NCBI GenBank assembly: GCA_018402565.1
Contig: JAGYIQ010000009.1
Span: forward strand, 1-64,000
Length of the DNA stretch: 64,000 bases
Direction of reading: 5' to 3'
Source of the DNA: Pirellulaceae bacterium
GTDB lineage: Bacteria; Planctomycetota; Planctomycetia; Pirellulales; Pirellulaceae
Position 1 is the stretch's first letter. Every line of letters begins with the position of its first letter. Below are positions 20,346 to 59,938 of this stretch, in pieces. The notes below the pieces were generated by a model. It was not told the origin of the DNA. It saw only the letters and a program-made list of their open reading frames with translations, and made no database searches. The position numbers and the translations under genes are program-made.

Positions 20346-20482
20346 GACCGGAATTCACAGATGGTATCGCAACAACAATAGAAATGTCTTTTTGGTAGTG
20401 AAATTACGTTTGTTTTATTATTGAAAAACAGATTGCACCGCCGAGGGGAATTCCGCAGAAAATACCTCGCGCGACGCAGCGA

Positions 20483-21478
20483 GAGCATCTGGTGAGTTGG
20501 CGCTGCGGGGAGTTTTATCGTCAGGCGGGGTTTTGCCATGGGGCATTCCGCCTGAAGGCGGGACTACAAGCGGGGCCAACTCGGCGCTGAACGAGAGCAT
20601 CTGGTGAGTTGGCGCTGCGGGGAGTTTTATCGTTAGGCGGGGTTTTGCCATGGCGCATTCCGCCTGAAGGCGGGACTACAAGCGGGGCCAACTCGGCGCG
20701 GAACGAGAGCATCTGGTGAGTTGGCGCTGCGGGGAGTTTTATCGTTAGGCGGGGCTTTTGCCATATGCACTTCCGCCCGAAGGCGGGACTACAAGCGGGC
20801 CAACTCGGCGCGGAACGAGAGCATCTGGCGAGTTGGCGCTGCGGGGCGTTTTATCTTTAGGCGGCGTTTTGCCATGGGGCATTCCGCCTGAAGGCGGGAC
20901 TACAAGCGGGACCAACTCGGCGCTGAACGAGAGCATCTGGTGAGTTGGCGCTGCGGAGCGTTTTATCTTTAGGCGGGGTTTTTCCAAAGGCATTCCGCCT
21001 GAAGGCGGGACTACAAGCGGGGCCAACTCGGCGCGGAACGAGAGCATCTGGCGAGTTGGCGCTGCGGGGAGTTTTATCGTTAGGCGGGGTTTTGCCATGG
21101 CGCATTCCGCCTGAAGGCGGGACTACAAGCGGGGCCAACTCGGCGCGGAACGAGAGCATCTGGTGAGTAGGCGCTGCGGGGAGTTTTATCGTCAGGCGAG
21201 GTTTTGCCATGGGGCATTCCGCCTGAAGGCGGGACTACAAGCGGGGCCACCTCGGCGCGGAACGAGAGCATCTGGCGAGTTGACGCTGCGGGGCGTTTTA
21301 TCTTCAGGCGGGGTTTTGCCATGGCGCATTCCGCCTGAAGGCGGGACTACAAGCGGGGCCAACTCGGCGCTGAACGAGAGCATCTGGTGAGTTGGCGCTG
21401 CGGGGAGTTTTATCGTCAGGCGGCGTTTTTCCATGGCGCATTCCGCCTGAAGGCGGGACTACAAGCGGGGCCAACTCG
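20483..21478. repeat. 112-bp tandem array, nine copies
   Basis: The word gagcatctgg recurs at 20483, 20595, 20707, 20819, 20931, 21042, 21154, 21266 and 21378, giving a period of 112 bp (111 once). The last copy is cut short near 21478. Each unit contains the hairpin CCGCCT-GA-AGGCGG followed by gactacaagcggg, and a second imperfect pairing ggcgg..tgcc / ggca..ccgcc. Since 112 is not a multiple of 3, protein-like readings through the array drift through all frames and are not genes. It sits between the convergent genes rsmH and the NagB-LmbE gene. Confidence 0.95.
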
Positions 21479-38530: not shown

Positions 38531-38745
38531 GGGCGTAGGGCGAAGGGCGAAGGGCGTAGGGCGTAGGGCGAAGGGCGTAGGGCGAAGGGCGAAGGGCGGA
38601 GGGCGAAGGGCGGAGGGCGAAGGGCGAAGGGCGAAGGGCGAAGGGCGTAGGGCGTAGGGCGTAGGGCGAAGGGCGAAGGGCGTAGGGTTGGGGCGAAGGG
38701 CGAAGGGCGTAGGGCGAAGGGCGGAGGGCGTAGGGTTGGGGCGTT
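38531..38745. repeat. Long heptamer array (gtagggc/gaagggc/ggagggc)
   Basis: About thirty units of a 7-bp repeat, gtagggc with gaagggc and ggagggc variants, interrupted by two gttggggc octamers. It lies in the gap upstream of the histidine kinase and merges at its right end with the modular element (gcgttgag..cgatggggctttt). The variants are distributed irregularly. Confidence 0.95.
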
Positions 38746-38765: not shown

Positions 38766-40345
38766 CGACGCCAAGGTTGGGAAAGAATCGGAGCCGTCGA
38801 GATTCACCAACGTAGCCAAAAATTGCCCCGCTCGAACCCAGTTGCTCCCAGGCCCTGAGGGCGTGCACAAGGACGTGGCGGGAAGAAAAGGCAGAAAGAT
38901 TCTGGGCAGAAAAATGGGGGAGCGTCAACTGACGCTCGTATGGGAACCCACCACAAATGCGATTCGAGTACGAGTACGAGTACCGCTGCGCTGAGTACAA
39001 GGCACCCACTACGCCCCACGCTCTACGCCCTACGCCCTACGCCCTATCGTTGGAAACACCGAGAGCCACAGACGATAACCAATGTGGCCCCCATCTGCCC
39101 CGCTCGAACCCACTTGCCCCCAGGCCCGGAGGGCCGACACAAGGACGTGGCGGGAAGGCAAGGCAGAAAATTTTTGGGCAGAAAAATGGGGGAAAGGTGC
39201 TTGGTTCTGGGTGCATTTTTTGGTCCTGCTCGTGCTTTTTTTGGTCCTGCTCGTGCTCGTGATCGTAATCGTAATCGAATACAGCACGGCTGAAGCGAGT
39301 GCGGTTCTTGACTCTCGGCGCCTTCATTTTTTATTTTTTATTACTCATTTTTCATTACTCATTCTTTAACTCTCAATTCTCAGAGCCAAACTAGTTTCCA
39401 AGCCAAACTTCTAGCATAAAGAACACCTCGCCCCATCTGCCCCGCTCGAACCCAATCGCCCCCAGGCCCGGAGGGCCGACACAAGGCATGGCGGGAAGAA
39501 AGGGCAGAAAAATTTTGGGCAGAAAAATGGGGGAGCGCCAACTGGCGATCGTATGGGAACCCACCACAAATGCAATTCGAGTACGAGTACGAGTACGAGT
39601 ACGAGTACGAATACCGCTGCGCTGAGTACAAAGCACCCACTACGCTCTACGCCCTACGCCCTATCGTTGGAAACGCCGAGAGCCACAGACGATCACCAAC
39701 GTGGCCCCCATCTGCCCCGCTCGAACCGAATCGCCCCAGGCCCGGACGGCCGACACAAGAACGTGGCGGGAAGAAAAGGCAGAAAAATTTTGGGCAGAAA
39801 AATTGGGGAAAGGTGCTTGGTTCTTGGTGCTTTTTTTGGTCCTGCTCGTGCTTTTTTTGGTCGTGATCGTGATCGTGCTCGTAATCCTAATCGAACACAG
39901 CCCGAGTGAAGCGAGTGCGGTTCTTGACTCTTGGTGCCTTCACTTTGCAATTTTTATTACTCATTTTTCATTACTCATTCTTTAACTCGCAATTCTCAGA
40001 GCCAAACTAGTTTCCAAGCCAAACTTCTAGCATACAGAACACCTCGCCCCAAGCTGCCCGCTCGAACCCAATCGCCCCCAGGCCCGGAGGGCCGACACAA
40101 AAACGCGGCTGGAAGGCAAGGCAGAAAAATTTTGGGCAAAAAAATGGGGAGCGCCAACTGACCCTCGTATGGGAACCCACCACAAATGCAATTCGAGTAC
40201 GAGTACGAGTACCGCTGCGCTGAGTACAAGGCACCCACTACGCCCCACGCCCCACGCCCTACGCTCTACGCCCTACGCCCTACGCCCTACGCCCTACGCT
40301 CTACGCCCTACGCTCTACGCTCTACGCTCTACGCTCTTCACCCTC
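38766..40345. repeat. 615-bp composite tandem array of the modular element (B-A-B-A-B)
   Basis: The word gctcgaaccc marks five copies at about 38830, 39100, 39442, 39719 and 40060. Copies 1, 3 and 5 (type B) continue with gccaactg..cgtatgggaacccacc (tatggg at 38939, 39552, 40169, spacing 613 and 617 bp), then gagtac hexamers and a ctacgcc heptamer array. Copies 2 and 4 (type A) continue with a ggtgcttggttct stretch and hexamers such as gtgctcgtaatc. All five share aggcccggagggccgacac (or close) and gcagaaaaattttgggcag. No gene is supported between 38329 and 40425. Confidence 0.9.
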
Positions 40346-48103: not shown

Positions 48104-48614
48104 GGCGTAGGGCGTAGGGTTGGGGCGTAGGGTTGGGGCGTAGGGTTGGGGCGTAGGGTTGGGGCGTAGGGCGTAGGGCGTAGGGTTGGGGCGTTGAGGG
48201 GCAACGGGGCGGGATGAAGGCTGAGGGCACAAAGGCAGGGGAGAAGAAGACGGGACGGCAGAAAAATTTTGGGCAGAAAAATTGGGGTGGGGGAAAATTG
48301 TTGTGGTTTGTGGTTGGAGGTTGGAGGCTGGAGGCTGGAGGTTTGAGGTTTGAGGTTTGAGGTTTGAGGTTTGTGATTTGTGATTTGTGATTTGTGATTT
48401 GTGATTTGTGATTTGAGATTTGAGATTTGTGATTGTTTGCCAGCACGGATCCTCGGCTGGGCGAGGCCTTCCCCAAACATTGCCCGTCGGAACCCAAACG
48501 CTCCCAGGCCCGACACGGCCTGAGCCGGTGGCGTCGGCGACCGGTCGGGTGCCTACGTTCTACGTTCTACGTTCTACGCTCTACGCTCTACGCTCTACGC
48601 CCTACGCCCTACGC
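48104..48614. repeat. Heptamer arrays of three sequence types plus a dispersed-element fragment
   Basis: Between the convergent ABC ATPase and DUF1501 genes: gtagggc/gttgggg units (48104-48192), the words gcagaaaaattttgggcag and aaaaattgggg (about 48259-48291), a 130-bp heptamer array of ggaggtt, tgaggtt and tgtgatt units (48305-48435), a fragment with cggaacccaaac and ctcccaggcccgac (48488-48515), and a ctacgtt/ctacgct/ctacgcc array (48552-48614). All arrays keep 7-bp registers although their sequences differ. Confidence 0.9.
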
Positions 48615-48619
48615 TGTCC

Positions 48620-53486: not shown

Positions 53487-53554
53487 CGTTCGCAATTCTT
53501 ATCTATGAATCAGGCAGGCTAGGCAGCACGGCGACGTGGCCGCAGTCCTGTCCA

Positions 53555-53654
53555 TGGGGTGGGAACCCGGGGCGGGAACCCGTGCGGGAACCAGGGGCTT
53601 ACCGGGGCGTAAACCAGGGGCCTTAACTCGGGGCATTAACTCGGGGCGGGAGCC
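53555..53654. repeat. 13-bp-periodic G-rich repeat
   Basis: About seven units of the form ggggc followed by 8 variable bases (ggggcgggaaccc, ggggcgtaaacca, ggggccttaactc, ggggcattaactc) run head to tail. The array lies in the 513-bp divergent gap between PSD1 and the DUF3239 gene (53487-53999); nothing else is recognisable there except a T-rich stretch at 53960-53970. Confidence 0.75.
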
Positions 53655-53999
53655 GACAACGACTCGGTCGTCGCGACTTGTATCGGTATTATAGCTGGCC
53701 GCTGCTCTCCGGGGAAGACTTATCGCCCGCGGTGGTCGCCCCCAGGCCCCTAAGTTGGCCGTAGCGGCGGCGAACTGGGCCGTACCCCACCCGGTTGCTA
53801 GCGCGACCCGCCATTATCCTCCCGAAGTGCGGCAGTTTGACGCTATGGGGACTCGGCTTCCCGGGGGTGGTTCCCCCCCCAACTCATCCGTGAAACCAAC
53901 CGATTGCTCATCACTTGCCATCGTGTCGCATAAGAACTCGTTGTGTTTCGTTTCCGAGTTTTTTTTCATCCTTTTAGCTTTGACGAAAGAGACTGTACG

Positions 54000-54512
54000 A
54001 TGTCTGCGAACGAGCGTGACTTCCATGCCTCCAACCCTGCCAACTTTCGTTTGGATGCTCTGCATTACTACAAGTACGACATGCTTAGCGACAAGGGCTG
54101 GCAGTTTTATCTGTACATCGTACTGCTGCCCGCGTTGGTGATCGCGGTGTTGGGGTACTACCTGGTTTGTGCTTGGGTCTTGATGCTGCTGCCACTTTGG
54201 CTGCTTTGGCGTGGCCACGCGGTGAACAATCGACATGCCCGCGAAGGAAACGTTTGTCCAGCAAAAGTCGTGTCCATCAATCCTGATTTGGTGGCCATGT
54301 CGACGAACTTGTCCTACGTGGCCGACAAGAATTTCCCGGTGATTCACTTGGAGTTGGCCAGCTTTCGCTTGTTCGCTGGTGAACCTGTCCGCTTGGGCGA
54401 ACGTCTGGCTATGGTGTCGTCCTATGATCATGGGCGAATTCAGGGACAATTACGAGCCGATCGAGGGCAAGTTTTATGGTCTGTGGTATTGCCGCCCCGG
54501 TCCGTGGTATGA
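54000..54512 (+). CDS. DUF3239-like membrane protein, probably frameshifted at the C-terminus
   Basis: A 170-residue reading with MSANERDFHASNPANFRLDA, a hydrophobic pair of helices (FYLYIVLLPALVIAVLGYYLV and AWVLMLLPLWLLWRGHA) and then AKVVSINPDLVAMSTNLS, all resembling DUF3239 proteins. After about position 54425 the frame turns to rare codons (cga, tta, gta) and ends at a TGA at 54510-54512. Frames +1 (to 54560) and +2 (to 54643) instead give protein-like readings, see the following entry. I therefore think the last 30 residues are out of frame. Upstream ATG 53943 would add an unlikely hydrophobic leader. Confidence 0.65.
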   Translation: MSANERDFHASNPANFRLDALHYYKYDMLSDKGWQFYLYIVLLPALVIAVLGYYLVCAWVLMLLPLWLLWRGHAVNNRHAREGNVCPAKVVSINPDLVAMSTNLSYVADKNFPVIHLELASFRLFAGEPVRLGERLAMVSSYDHGRIQGQLRADRGQVLWSVVLPPRSVV

Positions 54513-54643
54513 CTCGCAACGCTCAGACGATCCAACGGACGCTGGATAGTATTAGCGAGGAGTCCTGGCGGGACTTGGACCACGGTCTGAAACAAATCCC
54601 CCAGCCACCCCAACCGGGTACTTACCCGTACGAGGAAGCTTAG
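54509..54643 (+). pseudogene. Out-of-frame C-terminal remnant of the DUF3239-like gene
   Basis: A 44-residue frame reading MTRNAQTIQRTLDSISEES and then WRDLDHGLKQIPQPPQPGTY ends at the TAG 54641-54643. It looks like the conserved C-terminus expected of DUF3239 proteins (helix, then KQxPxP..GxYP). Its ATG overlaps the stop of the preceding frame as ATGA, so it might instead be a coupled mini-gene. An intermediate frame (54436-54560) reads EFRDNYEPIEGKFYGLWY with genome-typical codons. Two small indels would join the pieces; whether they are mutations or assembly errors cannot be told here. Confidence 0.5.
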
Positions 54644-54664
54644 GCCACTGACGAGACGCAAAAC

Positions 54665-55744
54665 ATGGACACGAACCCGGAACGACCGAGTGCTCAACCG
54701 CACGACGATGAGGTTGTGATTGACGGATCGTGGGGCGAGGGGGGTGGCCAGATCATCCGTTCGGCTTTGGCGTTGTCTTTGGTCACGGGGCGGCCGCTGC
54801 GGATGACTCGGATCCGCGCGGGCCGCCAGAAGCCGGGCTTGCTGCGGCAGCACTTGACCGGTGTGCGTGCCGCGGCGGAAGTCGGACGCGCCGCCCTCGA
54901 CGGCGATGCGTTGGGCAGTGGTGACCTACGTTTTGCTCCGTCCGAAATCGTCGCCGGCCATTATCGTTGGGACATTGGCAGCGCTGGAAGTACCACGTTG
55001 GTTGCGCAAACGGTTCTGCCCGCCCTGCTGTTCGCCGACCGCGTGTCCCAGTTGACGATCGTCGGCGGTACCCATAACTCCATGGCGCCACCGTTCGACT
55101 TTTTGCACGCCGCCTATTTACCACTGCTGGGGCGTTTGGGTCCGCGTGTGGAAGCCAACCTGCAGCAGTACGGATTTTATCCGGCAGGCGGTGGCCAATT
55201 GACACTGACCGTCCATCCGAGCCCTCTGCGCGGCTACGACCTATTGGAGCGTGGTACGTTGCTGGGGCGGAGCGCCGAGGCGGTCGTGGCGAACCTGCCC
55301 TTGGAGATTGCTCAGCGCGAGTTGGACACGGTCCGCCGCCGATTGGACTGGGATGGGACCGCGACCCTACACCCGCGTCAAGTGCCTGGCCCGGGTCCTG
55401 GCAATGCGGTGATGATCCGCTACGACTTCCAGCACGTGAGTGAGGTGTTTACCGGTTTCGGCCAACGCGGGGTGAGTGCCGAACGGGTGGCAGCGAACGC
55501 CGTGCGGGACGCGAGAAATTATCTGCGGACCGACGCGGTGTTGGGCGAGTACCTGACCGACCAGTGGCTCTTGCTACTGGCCTTGGCTGTGTGGCAAACG
55601 GGCCAAGCCCACTCGTTTAGCTGTGTGCCCTTATCGAGCCACTCGACGACCCATTTGCGGATCATTGAGCAGTTCCTCGGGGTGACCTGTACCAGCGACT
55701 CACGCGACGACGGGAGCTTGGTCGTGACGCTCTCGACGAACTAG
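54665..55744 (+). CDS. rtcA: RNA 3'-terminal phosphate cyclase
   Basis: A 359-residue enzyme that converts RNA 3'-phosphate to a 2',3'-cyclic phosphate with ATP. It has the family start DGSWGEGGGQIIRSALALS, the signature region FDIGSAGSTT-like WDIGSAGSTTLVAQ, THNSMAPPFDF and FYPAGGGQ; the likely nucleophilic His is in LSSHSTTHLRIIEQF near the C-terminus. A leading acidic tail of 15 residues precedes the core. No rtcB or rtcR is in the window. A degraded copy of its last 20 bp and following 70 bp reappears at 57461-57550. Confidence 0.95.
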   Translation: MDTNPERPSAQPHDDEVVIDGSWGEGGGQIIRSALALSLVTGRPLRMTRIRAGRQKPGLLRQHLTGVRAAAEVGRAALDGDALGSGDLRFAPSEIVAGHYRWDIGSAGSTTLVAQTVLPALLFADRVSQLTIVGGTHNSMAPPFDFLHAAYLPLLGRLGPRVEANLQQYGFYPAGGGQLTLTVHPSPLRGYDLLERGTLLGRSAEAVVANLPLEIAQRELDTVRRRLDWDGTATLHPRQVPGPGPGNAVMIRYDFQHVSEVFTGFGQRGVSAERVAANAVRDARNYLRTDAVLGEYLTDQWLLLLALAVWQTGQAHSFSCVPLSSHSTTHLRIIEQFLGVTCTSDSRDDGSLVVTLSTN

Positions 55745-55750
55745 ATTTTC

Positions 55751-57550
55751 CGTAATCCTTCACGCCCCGTAGGATGTCGTGCAGCAAGTCGGGCTAACTA
55801 GATGATTGCTGGTGTGTAGTGTCGATTAGTGTTTTGTCCACTACTATTTATGGCTAACGATCGATCAATCGTCGGAGGAAGGGGGAAGGGGAACACTAAT
55901 CTTCGCTGATCTGCGCTGATCTGCGATCGGGAGACCTTTGCACAGGCAAGGCAGGTGGGAACGCTTGTCAAGCATGTGTTTCGCGTTTTGGATTAGCGTC
56001 GATTAGTGTCGATTAGTGTTCCGCCCACGAACATAAATGACTAACGATCGATCAATCGTCGGAGATTGGGGGAGGGGGAACACTAATCTTCGCTGATCTC
56101 CGCTGATCTGCGATCGGGAGACCTTTGCACAGGCCCGGCAGGTGGGATTGCTTGTCAAGCATGTGCTTTGCGTTTTGGATTAGCGTGGATTAGTGTCGAT
56201 TAGTGTTCCGCCTACGAACATAAATGACTAACGATCGATCAATCGTCGGAGGAAGGGGGAAGGGGAACACTAATCTTCGCTGATCTCCGCTGATCTGCGA
56301 TCGGGAGACCTTTGCACAGGCAAGGCAGGTGGGAACGCTTTTCAATTTTGCGTTGAGGATTTTGCGTTAGCGTCGATTAGTGTCGATTAGTGTTCCTTTT
56401 TACCGCAATCAATGGCTAACGATCAATCAATCGTCGGAGATTGGGGGGGGAAGGGGAACACTAATCTTCGCTGATCTCCGCTGATCTGCGATCGGGAGAC
56501 CTTTGCACAGGCAAGGCAGGTGGGAATGCTTGTCAAGCATGTGTTTTGCGTTTTGGATTAGCGTCGATTAGTGTCGATTAGTGTTCCTGCCTACCGAACA
56601 TCAATGGCTAACGATCAATCAATCGTCGGAGATTGGGGGGGATGAAGAACACTAATCTTCGCTGATCTCCGCTGATCTGCGATCGGGAGACCTTTGCACA
56701 GGCCCGGCAGGTGGGATTGCTTGTCAAGCATGTGTTTTGCGTTTTGGATTAGCGTCGATTAGTGTCGATTAGTGTTCCTTTTTACCGCATATCAATGGCT
56801 AACGATCAATCAATCGTCGGAGATTGGGGGATGAAGAACACTAATCTTCGCTGATCTCCGCTGATCTGCGATCGGGAGACCTTTGCACAGGCAAGGCAGG
56901 TGGGAATGCTTGTCAAGCATGTGTTTTGCGTTTTGGATTAGCGTGGATTAGTGTCGATTAGTGTTCCGCCCACGAACATAAATGACCAACGATCGATTTT
57001 TGGAGCTCGGGGGGATGAAGAACACTAATCTCCGCTGATCTCCGCTGATCTGCGATCGGGAGACCTTTGCACAGGCAAGGCAGGTGGGATTGCTTGTCAA
57101 GCATGTGTTTTGCGTTTTGTATTAGCGTCGATTAGTGTCGATTAGTGTTCCGCTCACGAACATTAATGCCTAACGATCGATCGATCTCTGGAGGTCGGGA
57201 AAAAGGGGAACACTAATCTTCGCTGATCTCCGCTGATCTGCGATCGGGAGACCTTTGCACAGGCCCGGCAGGTGGGATTGCTTGTCAAGCATGTGCTTTG
57301 CGTTTTGGATTAGCGTCGATTAGTGTAGATTAGTGTTCCTTTTTACCGCAATCAATGGCTAACGATCAATCAATCGTCGGAGATTGGGGGAGGGGAACAC
57401 TAATCTTCGCTGATCTCCGCTGATCTGCGATCGGGAGACCTTTGCACAGGCCCGGCAGGTGTGCTCGTAGACGAATTAGTTCTGTATCCGTTCACGCCGC
57501 ATAGGGTGTCATGCAGTAAGTCGGGCTAACTAGATGATTACTTGTGTATC
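55751..57550. repeat. 188-bp tandem array, nine copies, flanked by 69-bp direct repeats
   Basis: The word gatcgggagacctttgcac recurs at 55925, 56112, 56299, 56490, 56681, 56870, 57054, 57242 and 57429 (period 184-191 bp). Each unit has a perfect inverted pair attagtgttcc / ggaacactaat about 55 bp apart, extended by three diverged decamers gattagcgtc on each side into imperfect arms of about 32 bp, with cgatcaatcaatcg in the loop and gcttgtcaagc as a small hairpin. Flanks: 55751-55819 and 57482-57550 are direct repeats (aagtcgggctaactagatga in both). No gene is supported inside. Confidence 0.95.
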
Positions 57551-57636
57551 GGAGCGGCTGGTAAATAACCCAAGCTTAACCCACAAACGATCGACTTGCG
57601 AGGGTGCACCATCCCCGAGGCTTACGTCTTCTTGTA

Positions 57637-58299
57637 CTCCCCCCTCTGCGGTGTTCCTCTCGCGTCCGGCGAAGAATTTTAACCGCAATCGATGGGACGG
57701 ACGCAGAGGAAGACAGCGGTTACTTGGTATTCTCTGCGTACTTCCTTCCTCTGCGGTGTTCCTCCTTCGGGCCGGCAGAAAGTTTGAACCGCGAGAGATG
57801 GGAAGGACGCAGAGGAAGACAGCGGTTGCCGGGTATTCTCTGCGTACTTTCCTCCTCTGCGGTTCCTTTTCTTCGGGCCAGCAGAAAGATTTGAACCGCG
57901 AGAGATGGGAAGGACGCAGAGGAAGACAGCGGTTGCCCGGTATTCTCTGCGTACTTCCCTCCTCTGCGGTGTTTCTCCTTCGGGCCGGCAGAAAGTTTGA
58001 ACCGCGAGAGATGGGAAGGACGCAGAGGAAGACAGCGGCTGCCCGGTATTCTCTGCGTACTTCCCCCCTCTGCGGTGTTCCTCCTTCGGGCCGGCAGAAA
58101 GTTTGAACCGCGAGAGATGGGAAGGACGCAGAGGAAGATAGCGGTTGCTCGGTATTCTCTGCGTACTTCCCTCCTCTGCGGTGTTCCTCCTTCGGGCCGG
58201 CAGAAAGTTTGAACCGCGAGAGATGGGAAGGACGCAGAGGAAGACAGCGGCTGCCCGGTATTCTCTGCGTACTTCCCTCCTCTGCGGTGTTTCTGCCAA
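57637..58299. repeat. 106-bp tandem array, six copies
   Basis: The word attctctgcgtactt recurs at 57729, 57835, 57942, 58048, 58154 and 58260 (period 106-107 bp). Each unit is an imperfect inverted repeat: accgcgagagatgggaagg..acgcagag pairs with ctctgcgtacttccc..ctctgcggt, arms about 26 bp, loop about 24 nt; then a second hairpin ccttcgggccggc. A 299-residue open reading on the minus strand crosses all copies; it is the three frames of one unit in rotation and not a gene. Confidence 0.95.
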
Positions 58300-58318
58300 A
58301 CAATAAAGCGAGTGCATT

Positions 58319-58424
58319 TCGATTACGATTTCGCTTTCGCTTTCGAGCGCGAGTACGAGTACGAGTACCGCTGAAGCTGAGTACGAGGACGAGGACGAGT
58401 ACGAGTACGAGTACGACGGCTACG
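58319..58424. repeat. Hexamer array (cgNNNN units)
   Basis: Units cgatta, cgattt, cgcttt, cgagcg and cgagta repeat in one 6-bp register, then after a short interruption gacgag/gagtac units. The same gagtac hexamers occur in the composite array at 38964, 39577 and 40193. A further 30-bp copy of the 112-bp array core (gcattccgcctggaggcggg) lies at 58477-58506, just before the decarboxylase 3' end. Confidence 0.85.
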
Positions 58425-58531
58425 GTCATGAGCCGGTCGTTGCGAAACGCCGTGAATAGTTACACCTATGCTTGCTGCATTCCGCCTGGAGGCGGGACTA
58501 CAAGCGACGCCGCCTAGTGACGAAGGGAGAA

Positions 58532-59938
58532 CTATTGCATTGTGACAGCTGATTCTTGGATCGCTTGTAGGGCGGTGGCCACATCGTCCCAAGTCGTCTC
58601 GAAGTGACCAATCGAAAAGCGAATCACAAATTGGCCAGCGTGGGTGGTCTGTGTCAAATACGTCCGGCCGTCACGGTTGATCCGCTCCAGCAATTCGCGG
58701 GTGGCGACGTCCGGATCGCTCGCGGGCGGGACGTAGCGGAACGTGAACAAGGAGAGTCGCGGGGCCGTGACGACCTGGAAATGCGGGAACGCCTGGAGTT
58801 GTTCGGCGGCTTGCTCCGCCCAGTGAACATGATTGCGAATCCGCGCCCGCAGGCCCTCGAGACCGTAGGCTCGGAGCAGGAACCATAACTTGAGGGCCCG
58901 GAAGCGGCGTCCCAGAGGGATGGTCCATTCGGAGTAATTCGTGATTTCTTCCGCATCCAGCGTTTGCAAGTAATGCGGGCGAATGGCCAACGTGCGGACT
59001 TGATCGGCCGGTTGGCGGAGGAACTGCACCGAGCAGTCGAAATTCGCACCCAGCCATTTGTGGGGATTGAACACCACGCTATCCGCCAGTTCAATGCCGC
59101 GCCAGATCTCGCGGAATTCCGGGCAGACCATGGCCGATCCCGCCCAGGCCGCGTCGACGTGGGAATAGAGCGAATGACGGCGAGCGACCGCCAAGATCTC
59201 GTGCAATCGATCGGAGGCTCCGATCGAGGTTCCGCCGATGCAACCGATCACGCCAGCCGGCAGGTACCCGGCCGCTCGGTCTTGTTCGATCGCCTCCTCC
59301 AACCGATCGGCTCGCATGGCCCAATCCCCGTCGGTGGGGACCTTGACCAGGTTATTCTGGCCGATGCCCGCCAGGCGAATGGCCTTGTCGATCGACGAGT
59401 GGGTTTGATCGGAGGCGTAGATCCGCAAGATCGGGGCGCCCGAGAGGCCCTCGGTCAATCCGCGCCACTCGAGGGCTCGCTCCCGCATGGTCAGTACCGC
59501 CGACAAGGTGGCGGAGGTGGCCGTGTCTTGCAGGACGCCGCGCCAACCCGCGGGCAGGTCCAGGGCCTGGCGGAGCCAATCGATCATGACCGTCTCCAGC
59601 TCGGTGGCGGCCGGCGAGGTCTGCCACAACATGCACTGGGCGGAGAGCACATTGGCCACTTGTTCGGCCAGAATCGAGGCCGGAGCCGCGTTGGAGGGAA
59701 AGTAGGCAAAGAACCGCGGGTGCTGCCAATGGGTCATGGCGTCCGGGATCAGACGCTCGAAGTCCGCAAAGATCGTCTCCATCGACTCGGGTTGCTCCGG
59801 TGGAGCCACGGGCAGCTGGGCCGCGACCGAACCCGGCTGGACCGTCGGCCGAACCGGGCGGCCCCGCAGCGTGGCGTAATAATTGTGGGCCCAAGCCGCC
59901 ACTTTGGCCGTCCACGGTACCAGATCTTCGTACTTCAC
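58532..59938 (-). CDS. PLP-dependent aromatic amino acid decarboxylase-like protein
   Basis: A 468-residue group II decarboxylase of the aromatic-L-amino-acid/tyrosine decarboxylase type. It starts with the family N-terminus (VPWTAKVAAWAHNYYATLRGRPV), has HPRFFAYFPSNAAPASILAEQ, the His and Asp of the PLP pocket in YSHVDAAWAGSAM, and the PLP Lys in VVFNPHKWLGANFDCSV. The substrate cannot be fixed from sequence. The start is GTG 59938. It stands alone, convergent with rtcA across the two large arrays. Confidence 0.93.
   Translation of the reverse strand: MKYEDLVPWTAKVAAWAHNYYATLRGRPVRPTVQPGSVAAQLPVAPPEQPESMETIFADFERLIPDAMTHWQHPRFFAYFPSNAAPASILAEQVANVLSAQCMLWQTSPAATELETVMIDWLRQALDLPAGWRGVLQDTATSATLSAVLTMRERALEWRGLTEGLSGAPILRIYASDQTHSSIDKAIRLAGIGQNNLVKVPTDGDWAMRADRLEEAIEQDRAAGYLPAGVIGCIGGTSIGASDRLHEILAVARRHSLYSHVDAAWAGSAMVCPEFREIWRGIELADSVVFNPHKWLGANFDCSVQFLRQPADQVRTLAIRPHYLQTLDAEEITNYSEWTIPLGRRFRALKLWFLLRAYGLEGLRARIRNHVHWAEQAAEQLQAFPHFQVVTAPRLSLFTFRYVPPASDPDVATRELLERINRDGRTYLTQTTHAGQFVIRFSIGHFETTWDDVATALQAIQESAVTMQ

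Follow-up and report, generated by a model that had tools for sequence, protein, structure and literature searches.

A tandem array of palindromic elements downstream of rtcA

The DNA analysed here (the window) comprises the first 64,000 nucleotides of contig JAGYIQ010000009.1 from a Pirellulaceae bacterium (GenBank assembly GCA_018402565.1). It contains rtcA, which encodes an RNA 3'-terminal phosphate cyclase (54665-55744; PF01137, 239 bits; PF05189, 54 bits), and a tandem array downstream of this gene. The array consists of tandem copies of a 133-bp palindromic element that contains no open reading frame (ORF), and the array adds a new member to a family of repeats, which we call the decamer family after its 10-bp words. 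In this genome and in its relatives, decamer repeats are found next to genes of the small nuclease-like protein GxxExxY (TIGR04256/PF13366, of the PD-(D/E)XK type), in many cases flanking them. All features of the window described below are on the forward strand.

Tandem Repeats Finder (TRF), run over the window, places the array at 55817-57461, with a period of 187 bp, 8.8 copies and 88% matches. The right arm of the palindrome occurs nine times in a repeat search (family D2), at spacings of 187, 187, 191, 191, 189, 184, 188 and 187 bp. The initial annotation had described nine units of 188 bp; the array and its nine right arms are real, but the period varies from 184 to 191 bp, and what stays constant is a 133-bp element, the remainder of 51-58 bp being variable. 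When cut from GGAAC to GTTCC, all eight full elements are exactly 133 bp long, with a mean identity of 94.5%, while the inter-element DNA has a mean identity of 76.5%. Each element is built from GGAAC, three 10-bp words, a core, three further words and GTTCC. A word reads CRCTRATC followed by two free bases, so its pitch is about one helical turn. The arm pair of each unit is GATTAGTGTTCC/GGAACACTAATC, and two further 10-bp words extend it on each side. This pair had been described as exact over 11 bp, with decamers on both sides; the arms and the further words are there, but one base is changed in the three copies beginning with AGAAC, and the first left arm, at the array edge, ends with GTTTT. 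Across the array and the relatives, elements start with GGAAC or AGAAC and end with GTTCC or GTTCT.

The array holds eight complete elements and two truncated ones, and both of its edges fall inside the truncated elements. Element 0 (55817-55835) is a truncated arm, with GTTTT in place of the terminal GTTCC. The complete elements are element 1 (55890-56022), element 2 (56077-56209), element 3 (56264-56396), element 4 (56455-56587), elements 5 to 7, which start with AGAAC (56646-56778, 56835-56967 and 57019-57151), and element 8 (57207-57339). Element 9 (57394-57461) is truncated to its first 68 bases.

Two unit phases are possible, one with the arms outward from the 51-58-bp part and the other with the arms inward on the other part. 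Here, the 133-bp piece is treated as the element, and the 51-58 bp are treated as neighbouring DNA that travelled with it. This is a choice, made because the 133-bp piece has a fixed length and a higher identity, and because lone gene-less copies with the order GGAAC, words, words, GTTCC occur in relatives. Folded as single-stranded DNA in one phase, a unit beats 199 of 200 shuffles (z -3.2), and element 2, in the other phase, beats all 200 (z -3.9), which bears out the earlier description of a folding inverted-repeat unit. In both phases, the two free bases between words are mismatched, which leaves 2x2 internal loops between the paired words. The array does not resemble a clustered regularly interspaced short palindromic repeats (CRISPR) array, as its repeats are 133-bp elements and its spacers of 51-58 bp are 76% alike, not unrelated.

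Decamer repeats in the genome and its relatives

In the following, G and L numbers denote genomes of the order and fetched loci, respectively, and G000 is the genome of the window. The pattern GGAACACTAATCNNCNCTNATC, searched in G000 with up to two mismatches, gives 77 forward and 74 reverse matches (151 arms in all), and the reversed-read pattern gives none. The strict pattern gives 118 dispersed arms. Decamer arrays are found at seven other loci of this genome, with periods from 189 to 475 bp, and share little with the window array beyond the arms; in one of them (L027), an array unit also holds words like those of repeat family C. Single arms and single pairs are present as well, the pairs in both phases.

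Gene-less copies differ in the length of the core, which is 89 bp between two-word arms in G000 and about 64 bp in G042. In 40 fetched loci from relatives, strict searching yielded 16 ORF-less copies from GGAAC to GTTCC, of which nine are 65 bp long, three are 55 bp long with one word fewer in one arm, and the rest are 66-71 bp long. Among 146 genomes of the order, 35 contain the strict three-word decamer pattern, and the reversed control is found in none. The second richest genome, G125, has 95 arms.

GxxExxY genes beside iterated-word repeats

The idea that GxxExxY genes might lie between such repeats preceded the tests described here. Of two PF13366 matches in the genome of the window, the strong one (C169:262832-263173) encodes a 131-residue protein that matches TIGR04256 'GxxExxY' with 130.6 bits. 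Two decamer arrays, 703 bp apart, enclose this gene, with the nearest arms 191 and 128 bp away and in the same orientation. Arms of the same word class as those of the window array are therefore found beside a GxxExxY gene of the same genome. Of 16 PF13366 loci in the genus, the nine with the highest scores all have repeats of iterated words at the gene, the words differing between loci as read by eye, and a decamer scan, the one search applied to the other seven matches, found no decamers there. Different GxxExxY copies within one genome also use different words, as judged by eye. A PF13366 gene is present in 78 of the 146 genomes.

We compared the 600 bp before and after the gene at 40 loci from 40 genomes, using windows of the same stretches as controls. 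A best match of at least 35 bits between the two flanks was found at 30 of the 40 GxxExxY loci and in 10 of 503 control windows. A best match that is inverted and scores at least 30 bits was found at 24 of the 40 loci and in 4 of the 503 controls. A separate iteration score passes on at least one side at 30 of 49 loci, compared with 12 of 294 single windows, a chance rate to be doubled in this comparison as a gene has two sides. When rtcA loci were taken as a control, none of 12 had a flank match above 22 bits (four more were too short).

Among eight plasmid records with GxxExxY, which come from Spirochaetota, Bacteroidota, Gemmatimonadota, Fusobacteriota and Pseudomonadota, two-sided inverted word arms above 33 bits are found in Bacteroides finegoldii and Bernardetia, and direct flank matches in a Fusobacteria bacterium and in Prevotella. 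The remaining four have no flank match above 27 bits, with words visible on one side in some. We note that on a plasmid of Sphingomonas parapaucimobilis (L250:1480-1908), a GxxExxY gene lies between fabD and fabG, behind the iterated words CACGCGAAGGCGCGAGGACGCGAAG, and looks like an insertion into a fatty-acid synthesis operon. No GxxExxY was found in phages at 1e-5, no PDB sequence matched GxxExxY at E <= 1, and PADLOC gave no match.

Two other gene families were considered as partners of the decamer repeats and rejected. The decamer motif was found at none of the 14 Y1_Tnp (PF01797) loci of the own genome, and it was missing at 12 of 13 loci of the 23S rRNA intervening-sequence protein 23S-IVP (PF05635), with a weak one at L104. 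The 23S-IVP loci (L096-L108) are often repeat-flanked themselves, with units of the GATC-N-GNC type, for example in L103, L105 and L106.

Word class and protein clade

To relate repeats to proteins, 49 GxxExxY proteins were labelled by the last letters of their word before the tree was made (24 GAG, 11 AAG, 11 AT and 3 other). The labels change 10 times on the protein tree, compared with 22.2 times in shuffles, and none of 200 shuffles was as low. The five genes with decamer words come from two families and form one clade with support of 100/99.

A profile of this clade was built from six proteins, in which P, D, E and K of the PD...ExK motif are invariant, and was run over the 146 genomes. 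The scores separate, with the 12 best hits at or above 160 bits and the next at 146.5 bits; the limit of 160 bits was set after the scores had been seen. All 12 of these decamer-clade genes have the two-word decamer motif in their locus. Five of them are members of the profile, so the independent count is seven of seven. Two further hits in pieces (L221 and L224) both have the motif, and none of the other 16 fetched GxxExxY loci has it. With one substitution allowed and within 200 bp, the motif is found on both sides of 11 of the 14 genes and on one side of the other three. At L201, there is a whole palindrome on each side of the GxxExxY gene.

The association is also seen at the level of genomes, where relatedness overstates independence and makes the p-values too small. 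Three-word decamer arms are present in 33 of the 78 genomes with PF13366 and in 2 of the 68 without (Fisher p 4e-9). They are present in 11 of 12 genomes with a clade gene of at least 160 bits and in 24 of 134 without one. When only PF13366-positive genomes are compared, the counts are 11 of 12 and 22 of 66 (p 2e-4). The tie of the decamer family to GxxExxY is thus supported by several partly independent tests, and mobility of the element would be a further step, which we regard as putative.

One site in two states

Two loci from one genus, L251 (genome G121) and L252 (genome G156), share their gene order around two genes whose motifs, as judged by eye, resemble those of GTPases, and the collinear blocks are 76% and 73% identical. 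At this site, G121 has GGAAC, words, a GxxExxY gene for 127 residues, words and GTTCC (L251:9651-10185). The orthologous site of G156 has a bare 65-bp palindrome (L252:11441-11505). This pair links the gene-less palindrome to the gene-bearing form. Either state could be the earlier one, and two separate events at the site are also conceivable.

We also observed decamer arms at L184:508-1030 in G121 that enclose an ORF of 122 residues and are nested, by eye, inside arms of the CACAGAG type. This ORF has no Pfam or NCBIfam match. It is possibly another cargo of the same kind of element.

Flanks of the array and neighbouring repeats

The two flanks of the array (55748-55815 and 57480-57547) are 84% alike over 68 bases. 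The initial annotation had reported them as 69-bp direct repeats, the left one continuing into the last codons of rtcA, and had suggested an insertion with a large target duplication. They are indeed direct repeats, but they belong to a genome-wide family. A search of the genome with the left flank gave at least 52 matches, a lower bound from 40 of 149 candidates scored. This family, here called repeat A, has sharp element boundaries in 41 copies listed from fetched loci (L061-L078, the two copies of the window included). It starts with GTAACCGTTCACG, ends with the inverted end CGTGAACGGTTAC, is 163 bp long in most copies and resembles a miniature inverted-repeat transposable element (MITE). 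It also forms tandem arrays of its own, at C2:122853-124115, C180:451484 and C1:1106499, with periods of about 170 and about 215 bp. In the window, the left copy (55751-55815) is cut off after its first ~65 bases, and the right copy (57484-57628) has no recognisable 3' inverted end. Over 65 bases only, the left copy has 89% identity to the copies at C1 and C213:139790 and 86% to its right counterpart.

Just outside repeat A, the end of rtcA at 55744 reads gacgaactag, and gacgaattag at 57471-57480 matches it in nine of ten bases. A local score as high was reached by 0.5% of 5000 random pairs of 26-mers from the window (p 0.005). The resemblance may be real, but it is short and was picked after the fact. 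A small local duplication could conceivably have taken the last bases of rtcA along.

At the seven loci, nine further decamer arrays were compared with that of the window. Eight of the nine lack a direct repeat above 21 bits between their 250-bp sides, compared with 78 bits for the window array, so that arrays free of a flanking duplication, which the initial annotation had named as evidence against its view if seen in relatives, exist within this very genome. The array at L032 has a 53-bp match between its two sides, starting exactly at the array edges, which may be a left-over part of a unit. A sensitive search of the seven loci found no repeat A at L024, L027 and L030, a 27-base match at L021, a one-sided copy at L022, 47 bases of repeat A on one side of L036, whose array also has ~20-base matches within and behind it, and copies on both sides, 135 bp and 1.4 kb away, at L032. 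Repeat A often occurs in the same intergenic stretches as decamer elements, yet arrays do without A. A duplicated target is not needed, because other decamer arrays lack the flank repeat and some lack repeat A. The similarity of the flanks, the match at the rtcA end and the edge match at L032 all speak for a target duplication, but the dispersed nature of the flanks and the eight arrays without them speak against it. We therefore reject it as the main account and consider it highly unlikely. In congeners, whose RtcA is 68-70% identical, other DNA and other neighbours lie behind rtcA, there is no array, and an empty site is not readable.

Directly 3' of the right A copy lies a second array (57634-58291; TRF, 6.2 copies of 106 bp). 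It is made of palindromic units with words of the CGCAGAG type, and one unit folds with z -5.3. By eye, its architecture is similar with another word class, and it is perhaps the same kind of element. Elsewhere in the window, 8.9 copies of a 112-bp unit containing GCATTCCGCCTGAAGGCGGGACTACAAGC are found at 20480-21478, with a similar stretch near 58475-58510. The window is also rich in simple repeats with units of 6-7 bp (GGGCGAA, CTACGCC and CGAGTA), at 38531-38735, 40238-40334, 48104-48615 and 58350-58416.

Discussion

On balance, we consider it somewhat more likely than not that the array behind rtcA arose by local amplification of an ORF-less relative of an element linked to GxxExxY; the nuclease would be responsible for binding, cutting and mobility. 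The GxxExxY nuclease, alone or with host enzymes, would recognise the iterated words as double-stranded DNA. A reader of double-stranded DNA suits the conserved words, the free bases between them and the pitch near one helical turn. Acting in trans, the nuclease would then spread or keep up both gene-bearing copies and gene-less palindromes, much as is proposed for repetitive extragenic palindromic (REP) sequences and their REP-associated tyrosine transposases (RAYTs). One such element may have come to lie in the repeat-rich DNA behind rtcA, where breaks or stalled forks at the palindrome would have allowed the element, together with ~54 bp of adjacent DNA, to be multiplied in tandem through unequal recombination. 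Growth of the array by recombination or fork repair is what we infer from its tandem form. Unequal recombination, which the initial annotation had also offered, gives a fair account of the tandem copies, but neighbours in the array are no more similar to each other than distant copies, and no trend that would be a sign of recent local growth was found. A broader proposal is more tentative, and we give it somewhat less than an even chance. In this proposal, GxxExxY proteins, which occur in several phyla, would be enzymes that serve a mobile-DNA class of their own, with ends made of three iterated words of 8-11 bp. Each clade would read its own word, and the gene-less palindromes (55, 65 and 133 bp, single or arrayed) would be the non-autonomous form of that class.

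Several observations weigh against this account. There is no GxxExxY gene beside the window array, and the nearest one known is on another contig. Lone pairs in the opposite phase are also present in the own genome, so that the phase of the element is a choice. The 16 ORF-less elements of relatives have no target-site duplication (mean 0.25 bases, compared with 0.21 in shuffles, p 0.48). The nearest arms are mixed in orientation, pointing inward at four, outward at three and the same way at four of the 11 two-sided genes, the gene of the own genome being among the last four, and outward arms are also found for other words (L080, L086, L166 and L171). On the protein tree, L168 (GAG, a long branch) and L165 (other) fall on the AT side. 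Twelve of the 49 loci lack an inverted match of 26 bits between their flanks. Among the 23S-IVP loci, 6 of 13 have matches above 40 bits from one flank to the other; repeated flanks alone do not set GxxExxY apart, and small ORFs of the genus sit in repeat-rich DNA generally. Of the 35 decamer genomes, 22, including G125, have PF13366 but no single decamer-clade hit of at least 160 bits (two of them, G043 and G088, carry a hit in pieces), and G141 is a decamer-clade genome with no strict three-word arm. Where repeats occur and a clade gene does not, gene-less repeats may outlive the gene, assemblies may miss it, or other clades may serve. Finally, we infer transposition, cleavage and binding from sequence comparisons.

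Ranked next after upkeep or spread in trans by the nuclease is homing, in which the palindromes pre-exist, the gene of a homing-type nuclease inserts into their centre, and gene-less palindromes are unoccupied sites. The arms are split as by a homing site at some genes (L199 and L202), L251 and L252 make an occupied and unoccupied pair at one orthologous site, and I-Ssp6803I, a homing nuclease of the PD-(D/E)XK type, is a precedent. However, no site is split at L201, where each side of the gene has a whole palindrome. The decamer arms are nearly absent from genomes that lack PF13366, gene-less cores have other lengths in G000 and G042, and the generally mixed arm orientation made us lower our estimate, so that we now regard homing as unlikely. 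The same mixed orientation slightly raised our estimate for arms that are binding sites of a regulator, be they operators, decoys or chromosome-organising sites, with arrays that titrate the protein and nothing that moves. The 10-bp pitch, which puts the three words on one face of the helix, the variable bases between words and an element far more conserved than its spacer would all fit such sites. The dispersal of the 118 strict arms in the own genome, the nesting inside arms of another word at L184 and the fact that GxxExxY copies within a single genome differ in their words are difficult to reconcile with them, and we hold this explanation to be as improbable as homing.

It is less likely still that the units encode structured RNAs or transcription terminators, which their strong hairpins, folded as DNA, could suggest. 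When positions 53500-58800 were searched with Rfam at E <= 1, no match fell in the decamer array, and all eight matches were miRNA models under a third of their cut-offs, located in the CGCAGAG array. Arm mismatches beside the genes, at the 37 usable of 49 loci, are not biased to G-U: 37 are G-U-compatible, compared with 58 of the A-C type (p 0.04). This is no sign of pairing in a sense RNA and is slightly the other way, so a sense-RNA hairpin was rejected. The duplicated target discussed above is the least probable of these explanations.

The finding of a palindrome family beside GxxExxY genes suggests that these proteins come with a small repeat-spreading element peculiar to them. GxxExxY is small and widespread, and if the arms are its substrate, its role is directly testable with a synthetic 65-bp palindrome. 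If our reading is correct, it could account for many iterated-word repeats in such genomes (CACAGAG, CGCAGAG, CACGAAT and CACTAATC types), and it would add a second, unrelated type of enzyme that handles palindromes in the way proposed for RAYTs and REPs. For the window, an odd satellite becomes a readable element with defined ends. In the open-licence literature searched, GxxExxY is mentioned in passing only, with no role described, TIGR04256 was not found, and PDDEXK_3 was not found together with repeats. Judged from this open-licence literature, the link is not in print.

Comparison with known systems

MITEs are short, have terminal inverted repeats and no ORF, occur in many copies and have a longer gene-bearing form. 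The decamer elements likewise have terminal inverted repeats, no ORF and many copies. They differ in that the 16 elements of relatives lack a target-site duplication, their ends are iterated words, and the mobilising enzyme, GxxExxY, is a candidate by association. Homing endonuclease genes and 23S rRNA intervening sequences place a small ORF in or beside a hairpin-forming site, with occupied and unoccupied sites. Here, in contrast, the palindromes are dispersed and not confined to one conserved gene, and whole palindromes can flank the gene (L201). Rpn/YhgA-like recombination-promoting nucleases are PD-(D/E)XK proteins tied to DNA mobility, but GxxExxY is another Pfam family. We know of no iterated-word arms for Rpn/YhgA-like nucleases, no search for them having been made.

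The likeness to REPs and RAYTs is closer. One study describes REPtrons and TIRtrons, in which a small gene is flanked by palindromes or terminal inverted repeats (TIRs) and gene-less copies are dispersed, and some RAYT-like genes flanked by long TIRs (PMC3733652). The GTAG (or CGTC) tag at the end of the palindrome is not found in the decamer elements, whose ends are GGAAC or AGAAC and GTTCC or GTTCT. The protein is also different, being a PD-(D/E)XK GxxExxY protein and not a Y1/HUH transposase, and the arms here are three iterated words of 8-11 bp. The two share short, multicopy palindromes, a small gene with the repeat on either side of it, as single arms or whole palindromes, and dispersed gene-less copies. 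On this comparison, REPtrons and TIRtrons are the nearest known arrangement.

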